64,000 bases of DNA from assembly GCF_020215645.1 (NCBI RefSeq), contig NZ_CP084058.1, forward strand, positions 4,836,001 through 4,900,000, in the 5' to 3' direction. This stretch comes from Nonomuraea gerenzanensis (GTDB taxonomy: Bacteria; Actinomycetota; Actinomycetes; Streptosporangiales; Streptosporangiaceae). Every line of letters starts with the position of its first letter. Positions within the stretch are counted from its first letter, which is position 1. Positions 48,713-54,303 of the stretch are shown in pieces. Made by a program: the position numbers and the translations under genes. A model generated the notes under the pieces. The model saw nothing but the letters and a program-made list of their open reading frames with translations, searched no databases and was not told the origin of the DNA.

Positions 48713-49753
48713 TCACGATGAGTCGCGGACCACCAGGGTCGGCTCGAAGATGACCGAGGTGGGCCGGTGCCCGGGCTGCTCGATGTGCTCCAGCAGCAAC
48801 CGGGCCATCTCCGCCGCCATGTCCTCCACCGGATGCCGCACGGTCGTCAGCGCGGGCCGGCAAGCGGTCGCCGCACTGCTGTCGTCGAACCCCACCACGG
48901 CCACGTCACCGGGCACGCCCAGCCCATGATCCCGCAGCACCAGCAGCGCCCCCTGCGCCATCAGGTCGTTGGCCACGAACACCCCGTCGAGCCCGGGATG
49001 CTCGGCCAGCAGCCGTTCCATCGCCTGCTCCCCGCTGTGACCGGTGAAGCCGCCCTCGGCGCAGGGCACGTACGGATGGCCGTGCGCGGCCATCGCGTCG
49101 CGGAAGCCGGCCAGGCGGGCGCGCCCGGCCGGCACGTCCAGCGGCCCCGAGATCGTCGCGACCTGCTTCCTGCCCCGGGCGACGAGGTGGTCGGCGGCGA
49201 GCTTGGCCCCGGCCCGGTGATCGACGTCCACGTAGCTGATCGGCACGGGCTCGGCGGGCCTGGCGAAGAGCACGGCGGGCAGCTTGGCCTCGGCGAACAG
49301 CCGTGGCAGCGGGTCCTCGGCGTGGGTGGAGACCAGGACGGCCCCGTCGGCGTCGCCCTGCCGCAGCGCGGCGAGCACCTGGGCGCGGGCCTCGGCGGTC
49401 TCGGCGAACATCAGGACCGGATGGATGCCGCGCGGCCGCAGGAAGGCGACGATGCCGCCGACGACCCGGCCGAAGAAGGGGTCGGTGAACACCTCGACGG
49501 GAAAGGAGTCGCTCTCCCCGCCCGCGCCGGAGACGACCAGGGCGATGCTGCCCGTGCGGCGGGTGACGAGCGAGCGGGCCGCCCGGTTCGGCACGTAGCC
49601 GGTGGCGGTGATGGCCTGCCTGACCGCCTCCTGGATGGCGGGGTCGACGTTGCGGATGCCGTTGATCACCCGGGAGACGGTGGCCCGGGAGACCCCCGCC
49701 GCCCTGGCGACGTCCTCCAGCGTGGGGGATGGCGGCGGGGGATCCTGCCTCAT
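48713..49753 (-). CDS. LacI family transcriptional repressor
   Basis: 346 residues. The N-terminal LacI helix-turn-helix and hinge are TLEDVARAAGVSRATVSRVINGIRNVDPAIQEAVRQAITATGYVPNRAARSL. The periplasmic-binding-like sensor domain starts TGSIALVVSG and includes VDVDHRAGAKLAADHLVARGR and GVFVANDLMAQGALLVLRDHGLGVPGDVAVVGFDD. It should bind a sugar ligand. ATG 49753 is chosen for the MRQDPPP start; the palindrome CGGAGAGCGCTCTCCG lies 22 bp upstream. Two further copies precede the DUF1996 and glycosidase genes, so this protein very probably controls all three. Confidence 0.95.
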   Translation of the reverse strand: MRQDPPPPSPTLEDVARAAGVSRATVSRVINGIRNVDPAIQEAVRQAITATGYVPNRAARSLVTRRTGSIALVVSGAGGESDSFPVEVFTDPFFGRVVGGIVAFLRPRGIHPVLMFAETAEARAQVLAALRQGDADGAVLVSTHAEDPLPRLFAEAKLPAVLFARPAEPVPISYVDVDHRAGAKLAADHLVARGRKQVATISGPLDVPAGRARLAGFRDAMAAHGHPYVPCAEGGFTGHSGEQAMERLLAEHPGLDGVFVANDLMAQGALLVLRDHGLGVPGDVAVVGFDDSSAATACRPALTTVRHPVEDMAAEMARLLLEHIEQPGHRPTSVIFEPTLVVRDSS

Positions 49754-49775
49754 GGCGTCTTTATAGCACACCTGC

Positions 49776-51285: not shown

Positions 51286-51318
51286 TGATCGTCGCGGCAC
51301 CCGTTCCTAGGAGAGGTC

Positions 51319-54303
51319 GTGCATCCATCACGCAGCTCAGGCAGGCTCAGGCGAAGCGCGGTCGCGGTCGCCGTCGCGCTGGCGGGCCTGGTCGTGTCCG
51401 GCCCGGCACCCGCCGGCCCGGCCCAGGCGGCGGCGGAGACTCCGCTCTCGCAGGGCAGACCGGCGACGGCCTCGTCATCGGAGGGCGCCGCGTGGAGCGC
51501 GGCGGCGGCCGTCGACGGCGACCGCACCGGCACCCGCTGGTCCAGCGCGTTCAGCGACCCGCAGTGGCTGCAGGTCGATCTCGGCGCTCCCGCGCGGATC
51601 TCCCGCGTCGTGCTCGACTGGGAGGCCGCCTACGCCCGCGCCTTCCGCATCCAGACCTCCGACGACGCCGCCACCTGGACCGACGCCTACGCCACCGCCA
51701 CCGGCACCGGCGGCACCCAGACCATCGACCTCACCGCCACCGGCCGGTACGTCCGCCTGTACGGCACCGCCCGGGGCACCGGCTACGGCTACTCCCTCTG
51801 GGAGTTCCAGGTGTACGGGGACACCGTCGGCTCGTGGACCGACGTCTGGTCGGACGACTTCACCGGCCCCGCCGGCACCGCCCCGTCGCCCGCGGAGTGG
51901 ATCCCGCGCACCGGCACCTCCTACCCCGGCGGCCCGGCCAACTGGGGCACCGGCGAGGTCGAGACCATGACCGCGGACCCCGCCAACCTCTCCCTGGACG
52001 GCGCGGGCCACCTCACGATCAAGGCGATCAAGGACGGCGCCGGCCACTGGACCTCGGCCCGCGTCGAGACCCGGCGCGCCGACTTCGAGCCGAGACCGGG
52101 CGAGCTGCTGCGGTTCAGCGCCCGGCTCAAGCAGCCGGGCGTCGCCGAACCCCTCGGCTACTGGCCGGGCTTCCGCGCCACCGGCGCCGCCTACCGCGGC
52201 AACCACACCAACTGGCCGGGCGTCGGCGAGAGCGACATCATGACCGCCGTCAACGGCCGCGACCAGTACTCCGCCACCCTGCACTGCGGCACCGCCCCCG
52301 GCGGCGTGTGCAACGAGTACGACGGCCGCAGCAGCGGCCTGGCCACCTGCGCCGGCTGCCAGAGCGGCTACCACGAGTACACCCAGGTCATCGACCGCAC
52401 CAGGACGGACGAGGAGATCCGCTTCTACCTCGACGGCAGGCAGACCTGGGTGGTGCGCCAGAGCCAGGTCGGCGTCGCCGCCTGGCGGGCCGCCGTGCAC
52501 CACGGCTTCTATCTCCGCCTCGACCTGGCCATCGGCGGCTCGCTGCCCGACGCCGTCGCCGGCCGCACCACCCCCGTCCCCGGCACCACGTCGGGCGGCG
52601 CGCTGAGCGTGGACTGGGTCAAGGTCTCCCGGCAGGCCGGCACCGTGCCCGCCCCGATGACCGACCCGCCGGTCCCGGCCGGGCCGAGCGTCGTGCGGGT
52701 GGCCGGCACGCAGGGCGACTGGCGGCTGGAGGTGAACGGCGCGCCGTACGAGATCAAGGGCATGACGTACGGGCCGCCGCAGGCCGCGGCCGACGCCTAC
52801 ATGCGGGACCTGGCGGCCATGGGCGTGAACACCATCCGCGTCTGGGGCGTGGACGACACCCACACCCCGGCCCTGCTCGACACCGCCGCCAGGCACGGCA
52901 TCAAGGTCATCGTGGGCCACTGGCTCAACCAGGGCGCCGACTACGCCGGCGACACCGCGTACAAGACCGGCGTGAAGAACGAGATCGTGGCCCGCGTCAA
53001 CGCGCTCAAGCACCGGCAGGGCGTGCTCATGTGGGACCTCGGCAACGAGGTCATCCTCACCATGCAGGACCACGGCCTGCCGGCCGACGTGGTGGAGCAG
53101 CGGCGGGTGGCCTACGCCAGGTTCGTCGAGGAGGTGGCGCGCGCCGTGCACGCCGCCGACCCGGACCACCCGGTCACCTCCACCGACGCCTACACCCACG
53201 CCTGGACCTACTACAAGGCCCACTCCCCGTCGCTCGACCTGCTCGCCGTGAACTCCTACGGCGCCATCGGCACCGTCAAGGACGACTGGGCCGCGGGCGG
53301 CCACACCAGGCCGTACGTCGTCACCGAGGCGGGCCCGGACGGCGAGTGGGAGGTGCCGGACGACGTCAACGGCGTCCCGGACGAGCCCGGCGACCTGGCC
53401 AAGCGGGACATGTACACCGCGAGCTGGAACGCCGTGCGCGGCCATCGGGGCGTGGCGCTCGGCGCCACCCCGTTCCACTACGGGCTGGAGAACGACTTCG
53501 GCGGCGTCTGGCTCAACACCACGCCGGGCGGCTGGCGGCGGCACGGCTACCACGCGCTGCGCGAGGCGTACACCGGGCAGGACTCCCCGAACACGTCCCC
53601 GGAGATCACCTCCATGACCGTGGCCGCGCGCACCGCCGTCCCGGCGGGCTCGGCGTTCGACGTGGCGGTGGCCGCCGCCGACCGCGACGGCGACCTGATC
53701 CGGTACAACCTCATGTTCAGCGACAAGCACATCACCGGCGACCGCGGCCTGTCCCACGTGCGCTTCACCCAGACAGGGCCGGGCACGTTCTCGGTGACCG
53801 CGCCGCAGCGGCTGGGCGTGTGGAAGGTGTACGTCTACGCCTACGACGGCCACGGCAACGTCGGCATCGAGCAGCGCTCCTTCCGCGTGGTGCCGCCGGT
53901 CGTGGCGGGCACGAACGTGGCGCGCGGCAGGCCGGCCACCGCCTCCACCTCCCAGGCGAACGGCGACGGCGGGCCGTTCACCCCCGACCGGGCCACCGAC
54001 GGCAGCTTCACCTCCCGCTGGGCCAGCGAGTGGGCCGACCCGCAGTGGTTGCAGGTCGATCTCGGCCGGCCGGTCGCGATCAAGCACGTCCAGCTCGGGT
54101 GGGAGGCCGCGTACGCCCGGGCGTACCAGGTGCGGACCTCCCTCGACGGCACGAACTGGACCTCCGCCTTCGCCACCACCGACGGCGACGGCGGCTTCGA
54201 CGAGATCGGCCTGGATACCACCGCCCGCTACGTCCGCCTGGACCTCACGCAGCGCGGCACCGCCTACGGCTACTCGCTCTGGGAGTTCGGCGTCTACGGC
54301 TAG
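51319..54303 (+). CDS. Secreted multi-domain glycosidase: F5/8C - GH16-like - TIM barrel - Ig-like - F5/8C
   Basis: 994 residues. Sec signal peptide (about 1-39); F5/8 type C module 42-168; GH16-like lectin fold about 172-448; a clan-A type TIM barrel about 462-755 resembling GH2/GH5 enzymes; an Ig/Big-like domain 760-860; a second F5/8C module 862-994. In the GH16 part the catalytic ExDxxE reads E304-S-D306-I-M-T309: the acid/base Glu is Thr, so this module may only bind glycan. The barrel keeps both acids: E577 in DLGNEV and E670 in VTEAG. It should act on an extracellular polysaccharide. GTG start with AGGAGAGG 3 nt upstream. Controlled by the LacI operator copy 3. Confidence 0.9.
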   Translation: MHPSRSSGRLRRSAVAVAVALAGLVVSGPAPAGPAQAAAETPLSQGRPATASSSEGAAWSAAAAVDGDRTGTRWSSAFSDPQWLQVDLGAPARISRVVLDWEAAYARAFRIQTSDDAATWTDAYATATGTGGTQTIDLTATGRYVRLYGTARGTGYGYSLWEFQVYGDTVGSWTDVWSDDFTGPAGTAPSPAEWIPRTGTSYPGGPANWGTGEVETMTADPANLSLDGAGHLTIKAIKDGAGHWTSARVETRRADFEPRPGELLRFSARLKQPGVAEPLGYWPGFRATGAAYRGNHTNWPGVGESDIMTAVNGRDQYSATLHCGTAPGGVCNEYDGRSSGLATCAGCQSGYHEYTQVIDRTRTDEEIRFYLDGRQTWVVRQSQVGVAAWRAAVHHGFYLRLDLAIGGSLPDAVAGRTTPVPGTTSGGALSVDWVKVSRQAGTVPAPMTDPPVPAGPSVVRVAGTQGDWRLEVNGAPYEIKGMTYGPPQAAADAYMRDLAAMGVNTIRVWGVDDTHTPALLDTAARHGIKVIVGHWLNQGADYAGDTAYKTGVKNEIVARVNALKHRQGVLMWDLGNEVILTMQDHGLPADVVEQRRVAYARFVEEVARAVHAADPDHPVTSTDAYTHAWTYYKAHSPSLDLLAVNSYGAIGTVKDDWAAGGHTRPYVVTEAGPDGEWEVPDDVNGVPDEPGDLAKRDMYTASWNAVRGHRGVALGATPFHYGLENDFGGVWLNTTPGGWRRHGYHALREAYTGQDSPNTSPEITSMTVAARTAVPAGSAFDVAVAAADRDGDLIRYNLMFSDKHITGDRGLSHVRFTQTGPGTFSVTAPQRLGVWKVYVYAYDGHGNVGIEQRSFRVVPPVVAGTNVARGRPATASTSQANGDGGPFTPDRATDGSFTSRWASEWADPQWLQVDLGRPVAIKHVQLGWEAAYARAYQVRTSLDGTNWTSAFATTDGDGGFDEIGLDTTARYVRLDLTQRGTAYGYSLWEFGVYG

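Follow-up and report, generated by a model that had tools for sequence, protein, structure and literature searches.

What polymer do a secreted protein with a DUF1996 domain and its divergently encoded multi-domain glycosidase act upon, and which regulator controls them? The question is raised by a stretch of 64,000 nucleotides from Nonomuraea gerenzanensis (contig NZ_CP084058.1, positions 4,836,001 to 4,900,000), hereafter the window, where these two genes follow a gene for a LacI-family regulator and where copies of one palindromic 14-mer, GGAGAGCGCTCTCC, precede all three genes. From the sequence, we propose that the cluster is probably part of a LacI-operator regulon directed at beta-1,3-glucan (of fungal walls, or laminarin), in which DUF1996 would be the partner of a glycoside hydrolase of family GH158. 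The features concerned, in window coordinates, are as follows.

48713..49771, minus strand: LacI-family regulator (Pfam LacI and Peripla_BP_3; start GTG at 49771 or ATG at 49753)
49777..49790, no strand assigned: operator 1, GGAGAGCGCTCTCC, within the 21 bp that separate the DUF1996 stop (49793) from the LacI GTG (49771)
49793..51148, minus strand: secreted CBM32 (F5/8C)-DUF1996 protein, 451 amino acids (Pfam PF09362, 156.6 bits against a cut-off of 27; signal peptide judged by eye)
51178..51191, no strand assigned: operator 2, GGAGAGCGCTCTCC, 29 bp upstream of the DUF1996 ATG (51148)
51271..51284, no strand assigned: operator 3, GGAGAGCGCTCTCC, 34 bp upstream of the GTG (51319) of the CBM32-GH16-GH158-CBM32 glycosidase gene
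51319..54303, plus strand: secreted CBM32 - GH16-like - GH158 - Ig-like - CBM32 protein, 994 amino acids (GTG start; signal peptide judged by eye)
51829..52641, plus strand: GH16-like domain of this protein, residues 171-441 (PDB 7eo3, E 3e-85; 3dgt, E 4e-73; motif GESDIMT)
52684..53853, plus strand: GH158 barrel and Ig-like domain of the same protein, residues 456-845 (PDB 9oro, a GH158, E 3e-28; 6pal, E 3e-22)

The gene order is lacI (minus), F5/8C-DUF1996 (minus) and then the divergent glycosidase gene (plus), with operators 2 and 3 lying 93 bp apart between the two divergent genes. An earlier, sequence-only reading of this DNA had placed one 14-bp core ahead of each of the three genes and nowhere else in the window; the exact search agrees, returning these three copies and no further site even when two mismatches are allowed, and the gaps measured to the gene starts confirm the arrangement. 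The 16-bp palindrome also described there, CGGAGAGCGCTCTCCG, holds for two of the three sites, the remaining one being symmetric over 14 bp only. Under a first-order Markov model, 0.0015 exact copies of GGAGAGCGCTCTCC are expected in 64 kb, and the whole genome (12.07 Mb) contains four against 0.29 expected, the fourth being upstream of a GH16-CBM6 gene. When sites with up to two mismatches are counted, shuffled sequences hold 1.05 on average and 7 out of 100 reach at least three; since the test is weak at this tolerance, the weight of the evidence lies in exactness and position. With at most one mismatch, the genome has nine sites compared with three for the reversed control, and the five inexact ones (one upstream of a GH3 gene, L009; two within reading frames, L006 and L007; and L005 and L008) carry little weight. 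A search of the sequence for sigma-70 promoters and terminators found none.

With regard to the encoded proteins, Pfam supports the LacI and F5/8C-DUF1996 assignments of the sequence-only reading, and the glycosidase can now be resolved into F5/8C, GH16-like, GH158 and F5/8C domains. In the latter protein, Pfam detects F5/8C domains only, plus a sub-threshold GH72 match, and an NCBIfam scan of the window proteins gave no match over cut-off; PF00754 (F5/8 type C) exceeds its cut-off in both secreted proteins, as expected of CBM32 modules. Membership of GH158 rests on homology over the barrel and the Ig-like domain, and on the conservation of both predicted catalytic residues, the acid/base E577, preceded by Asn (GNE), and the nucleophile E670 (TE), which align with 6pal; both motifs are found in all 56 related loci that have a GH158 gene. 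Almost the whole GH16-like domain can be aligned with the GH16 endo-1,3-beta-glucanases 7eo3 and 3dgt. The catalytic triad of GH16 enzymes follows the motif ExDxxE, which reads EFDIME in 7eo3 and ELDIME in 3dgt, but ESDIMT in the window protein, where the nucleophile E304 is kept and the acid/base Glu is replaced by T309. Thr occupies the acid/base position in 16 of 22 GH16-like segments from close relatives, and Glu in the other six (a count that excludes three distant segments with 33% identity or less), so that the change looks kept rather than decayed. The GH158 protein carries within it a GH16 domain whose acid/base residue is gone, and this domain is probably a glucan-binding pseudo-enzyme. 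For comparison, the catalytic residues of BuGH158 from Bacteroides uniformis are named as N136, E137 and E220 in the available text of PMC7157763.

Beyond the window, the inner 12-mer GAGAGCGCTCTC occurs at 12 sites in the genome, compared with about three expected and none for the reversed control, and ten of them belong to this cluster or lie upstream of genes fitting one substrate.

Window cluster: three sites
Upstream of GH16-CBM6: two sites
Between a LacI paralog and a CBM32-CBM32-GH16 gene, with DUF1996 next: one site
Upstream of GH16-ricin: one site
Upstream of GH3-CBM11: one site
Upstream of GH55 (best solved match 4pew, which we take to be a GH55 structure, E 5e-152): one site
Upstream of an ATP-binding cassette (ABC) solute-binding protein gene, with GH1 and LacI genes nearby: one site

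A further near-site is present upstream of a CBM32-GH55 gene. The third entry corresponds to a second cluster (L146, 8004-11828; G000:C1, about 10675-10679 kb) comprising a LacI paralog, an A-ended site AGAGAGCGCTCTCT, a CBM32-CBM32-GH16 gene and a DUF1996 gene that lacks CBM32 and starts about 20 bp past the GH16 stop. The compact regulon first imagined is therefore not isolated, as the same 12-mer core also marks GH16, GH3 and GH55 genes, this second LacI-GH16-DUF1996 cluster and the solute-binding gene. The absence of a transporter from the cluster itself stands, none being found among the annotated neighbouring proteins, and the core upstream of the solute-binding protein gene suggests that a transporter probably belongs to the wider regulon. 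Because the GH16 and GH158 families hold endo-beta-1,3-glucanases, and because the site-bearing genes encode GH16, GH158, GH3 and GH55 enzymes, beta-1,3-glucan appears as the common polymer; fungal cell-wall glucan is the most likely target, and laminarin or curdlan would fit too.

The operators, the domains, the recurrence and the co-occurrence are read from sequence; for repression, inducer, substrate and the action of DUF1996, we infer the following scheme. When glucan is lacking, LacI dimers bound to the palindromes would repress all three genes, until a short beta-1,3-gluco-oligosaccharide, perhaps laminaribiose, frees the regulator from its operators. The GH158 protein, anchored on the wall by its CBM32 domains and probably also by the acid/base-less GH16 domain acting as a non-catalytic glucan binder, would then cleave the glucan internally, and DUF1996, which carries the same kind of CBM32, would act on the same polymer. 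Degradation would be completed by GH16, GH55 and GH3 enzymes and a probable ABC transporter under the same 12-mer core elsewhere in the genome.

The arrangement recurs in relatives, which were taken as the best 80 of 514 DUF1996 loci from named genomes, a set biased to close relatives and including several loci cut by contig ends, with genes predicted by a simple gene caller of our own. The genera represented include Sphaerisporangium, Actinoplanes, Lentzea, Amycolatopsis, Cellulomonas, Promicromonospora and Kitasatospora. The 10-mer core AGAGCGCTCT is present in 73 of these loci, the 12-mer in 61, and the core or one of two variants in 76; in 44 loci a core lies at most 400 bp upstream of DUF1996. 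The 12-mer totals 153 copies in 1.01 Mb, whereas the other 59 permuted half-site palindromes have at most five each (median 0). A LacI relative accompanies DUF1996 in 60 loci, GH158 in 56 and a GH16 relative in 24. Where GH158 is present, it lies first on the same strand in 26 loci, is divergent from DUF1996 in 23, and is otherwise oriented in seven. GH3 genes too have the operator upstream in several loci (in one protein cluster, whose member in L047 is a GH3 according to Pfam, 9 of 13 genes do), as does a CBM32-GH55 gene in one Lentzea locus (L092). Separately, in Amycolatopsis loci L106, L108, L113 and L115, a TGAGAGCGCTCTCC site before lacI faces a small divergent frame (101-163 amino acids, all four forming one protein cluster, as called by our own gene caller), which may be an extra regulon member.

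A survey of 148 genomes of the class, with up to 16 candidates scored per genome and misses therefore possible, detected GH158 (E 1e-15 or better) in nine genomes and DUF1996 in 21. All nine GH158 genomes also have DUF1996, and in all nine the two lie within about 2.4 kb of each other (P 4e-9, kinship ignored); as five of the nine belong to one genus and two to another, the independent evidence amounts to about four genera. DUF1996 and the glycosidase share an operator and are paired in other genera as well, and the earlier suggestion that the two proteins work on one substrate is likely to be correct.

Several observations weigh against this reading. In the genome, the 10-mer core reaches 19 copies for a Markov expectation of 16.5 (reversed control, 2), a weak enrichment near expectation, which means that only the longer core is informative. 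The 12-mer alone is itself unspecific, with at least one copy in 68 of the 148 genomes, and two of its 12 sites in N. gerenzanensis (L156 and L160) have no fitting neighbour. In 12 of the 21 DUF1996 genomes the threshold applied detects no GH158; of ten GH158 copies, one (G078 C11) has no DUF1996 on its contig; and one genome (G128) has the GH158 and DUF1996 pair with no exact 12-mer. The operator core is absent from all 13 loci of a divergent DUF1996 clade (about 32% identity), so the operator link concerns only part of DUF1996. Furthermore, the best solved matches to the F5/8C domains of the window are 4zy9 and 2rv9, which come from a protein annotated as glucanase/chitosanase and are presumably the chitosan-binding CBM32 domains from Paenibacillus IK-5, a strain for which a chitosan-binding domain is on record; chitosan is thus a possible substrate. 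Finally, LacI paralogs with up to 50% identity and similar recognition helices are encoded in the same genome, and a LacI of the window type was not found in 14 of the 18 genomes whose GH16-CBM6 gene keeps its sites.

These last two points bear on which protein reads the sites. The window regulator is a clear LacI-family member (PF00356, 59.6 bits, and PF13377, 124.4 bits, both above cut-off), and its best solved relative is 5ysz (E 5e-73), which we take to be CelR of T. fusca. Its recognition-helix region reads SRATVSRV, as in most neighbouring LacI proteins, some having SRATASRV. Of 21 genomes of the genus, four yielded a LacI of the window type (E 1e-95 or better), with up to 99 candidates scored per genome, so that an ortholog could be missed in genomes with more. 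Orthologs of GH16-CBM6 are present in 18 of these genomes; all 18 have at least one exact 12-mer core site there, and 17 have two sites when one mismatch is allowed. Since these sites are kept with or without the window-type LacI, the core is very likely recognised by at least one other LacI as well, and the regulon is not defined by the window LacI alone.

A stronger version of this view, in which the main reader of the sites is a different LacI paralog present throughout the genus (such as that of L147, next to GH1 and ABC genes, or that of L146), deserves serious attention, although we would not favour it. The local LacI would then be a minor or differently tuned reader, and the cluster would be wired into an older beta-glucoside regulon. 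The presence of the A-ended AGAGAGCGCTCTCT in 20 of the 21 genomes, against four with the window-type LacI, speaks for it, as do the operators of GH16-CBM6, retained irrespective of that LacI, and the similar helices of the paralogs. On the other side, the lacI gene adjoins the cluster and is served by a site of its own, as it is in relatives, and the four LacI carriers hold 4, 3, 3 and 3 exact copies of the G-ended GGAGAGCGCTCTCC, compared with at most one in the 17 others, though most of these copies are intra-cluster. The 14-mer occurs in seven of the 21 genomes, the three lacking the window-type LacI having one copy each, located beside a second-type DUF1996 (42% identity) in L166 and on short contigs with no match to the seed proteins in L164 and L168. 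The idea that the G-ended GGAGAGCGCTCTCC is a private code of the local LacI was dropped, because most of its sites are inside the cluster and GH16-CBM6 keeps 12-mers where the window-type LacI was not found; the outer base is not taken to identify the reader.

The role of DUF1996 is the second point where alternatives compete. The domain occurs in fungi and bacteria, and no activity was found for it in the literature searched. An alignment of 44 sequences (the window domain and 43 chosen for diversity from 91) has invariant D33, H46, H48, D77, H188 and H234 (domain numbering), that is D198, H211, H213, D242, H353 and H399 of the protein, together with seven Cys, and D34 and D236 are conserved at 90% or more; D198, D199, H211, H213, D242, H353, H399 and D401 are consequently candidate site residues. 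The signature published for Beauveria DUF1996 proteins (D-x4-P, HxH, DxSxYW, CP and HxD, in the available text of PMC4738358) fits the window protein when read by eye, with two small departures, namely a tail HxDx3AW instead of HxDx3GW and a G-to-D spacing of 24 residues instead of 25-26. The AlphaFold2 model of the domain has high confidence (predicted local distance difference test, 93.1; predicted template modelling score, 0.90), and neither its comparison with solved folds nor a search of solved structures with DUF1996 alone (E 1) gave a match. Among the matches listed, the nearest named relatives of the DUF1996 protein, from a Nonomuraea and from [Actinomadura] parvosata, are 92% identical.

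DUF1996 may instead be no enzyme but a module that binds beta-glucan or structures the wall without catalysis, a possibility we regard as substantial without adopting it. This view agrees with the lack of a known activity and with fungal members being reported as stress and wall-integrity proteins in the text available of PMC4738358 and PMC9148135. However, the invariant D, HxH, D, H and H and the nearly invariant D, seen in the 44 sequences and in the fungal signature too, resemble a catalytic or metal site more than a binding platform, and the bacterial protein already carries a CBM32. We slightly favour an enzymatic role over one in binding alone. On the basis of its CBM and WSC partners, others have connected DUF1996 tentatively with the degradation of polysaccharides (PMC7679414, as far as its accessible text goes). 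More tentatively, we can propose that DUF1996 is an unrecognised family of carbohydrate-active enzymes, with a fold unmatched in these PDB searches, whose invariant Asp/HxH/Asp/His/HxD site would cut or de-crosslink the beta-1,3-glucan of fungal walls; actinomycetes might combine it with GH158 in order to lyse fungi, which in turn might apply the same domain to their own walls. Its repeated association with GH158 behind a common operator indicates which polymer to try first, making the role of DUF1996 testable on a named substrate. If DUF1996 is an enzyme, it would offer a new means of attacking fungal cell walls and could account for the wall-stress phenotypes of fungal mutants.

Two further groups of DUF1996 sequences were noticed. 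A third, divergent DUF1996 of N. gerenzanensis (L150, G000:C1:1385381-1386031; about 33% identity) belongs to a genus-common clade with no operator core nearby. DUF1996-like domains (about 30-33% identity) are present in the Siphoviridae phage MW202423.1 (L176, 3347-4831) and in Salmonella contigs that are grouped with phage records.

A target other than beta-1,3-glucan, such as chitosan, or beta-1,3/1,4- or cello-oligosaccharides, seems unlikely. The CelR-like character of the closest solved regulator (5ysz) and the F5/8C relatives 4zy9 and 2rv9 point in that direction, as does the palindrome of Streptosporangium roseum, which, in the main text of PMC3377646, also lies upstream of an ABC operon called putatively cellobiose. 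Against this, no cellulase or chitosanase is found among the annotated site-bearing genes, whose enzymes are of the GH16, GH158, GH55 and GH3 families, and the genes described at such palindromes in the same text include no cellulose-degrading enzymes (PMC3377646). Finally, a chance or unrelated repeat of GC-rich DNA, to which the seven shuffles reaching three sites at two mismatches could be held to point, is exceedingly improbable given exact matches, promoter positions, recurrence across many genera and permuted controls near zero.

How far the system was already known has to be considered in this context. A study on actinobacterial cellulose systems, published in 2012 with Anderson reportedly as first author, had noted such palindromes. 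Its main text places the one of S. roseum, GGAGAGCGCTCTCC, upstream of five adjacent genes (Sros_3721-3725), including a LacI, two CBM32 proteins and a GH3, and of the ABC transporter operon (Sros_7173) linked to cellobiose; its section 8 assigns no substrate, nor beta-1,3-glucan, to the set, and the words 'DUF1996' and 'laminarin' are absent from this main text (PMC3377646). We infer that this is the same cluster as in the window, its two CBM32 proteins corresponding to those with DUF1996 and GH158. For C. acidiphila, the same text describes a related palindrome upstream of genes for a LacI, a GH5 whose activity is unknown and a pair of GH16 proteins, maybe endo-1,3-beta-glucanases (PMC3377646). 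The sequence-only reading had seen in the system a candidate for an undescribed one, which is too strong for the palindrome; the substrate and the GH158-DUF1996 pairing were not found in the literature searched. As far as that literature goes (subscription journals being largely outside it), the novelty lies in recognising the GH158 domain and its pairing with DUF1996, in assigning the regulon to beta-1,3-glucan, in the degeneration of the GH16 domain and in the evidence that more than one LacI reads the sites, and the palindrome noted in 2012 becomes a testable beta-1,3-glucan regulon. 'Glucan' and 'laminar' are likewise absent from the main text of a 2014 survey of LacI regulons (PMC4052901).

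Among known systems, the CelR/CebR cellobiose regulons share with the window a LacI-family repressor, a CG-centred palindrome and the nearest solved regulator (5ysz). They differ in that the window operator, two bases per half away from the CelR site given in the main text of PMC3377646, is not a CelR operator, and in that its neighbours belong to beta-1,3-glucanase families rather than cellulases. The beta-1,3-glucan utilisation locus of B. uniformis likewise combines GH16, GH158 (BuGH158) and GH3, jointly acting on this polymer, but relies on a TonB/SGBP system and a hybrid two-component regulator, with no LacI or DUF1996 named in the portion of text available (PMC7157763). The fungal DUF1996 proteins share domain and signature with the window protein; those of Beauveria are vacuolar, and not secreted with a glucanase, according to the available text of PMC4738358.

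Two neighbouring genes complete the picture. Convergent with the glycosidase gene, a large gene at 54325-57138 of the window, without the operator core, encodes a BTAD/NB-ARC/TPR (SARP/AfsR-like) regulator. On the other side of the cluster, at 45379-46128, an ArsR-type helix-turn-helix is fused to a low-molecular-weight phosphatase domain, which may be arsenate-reductase-like.

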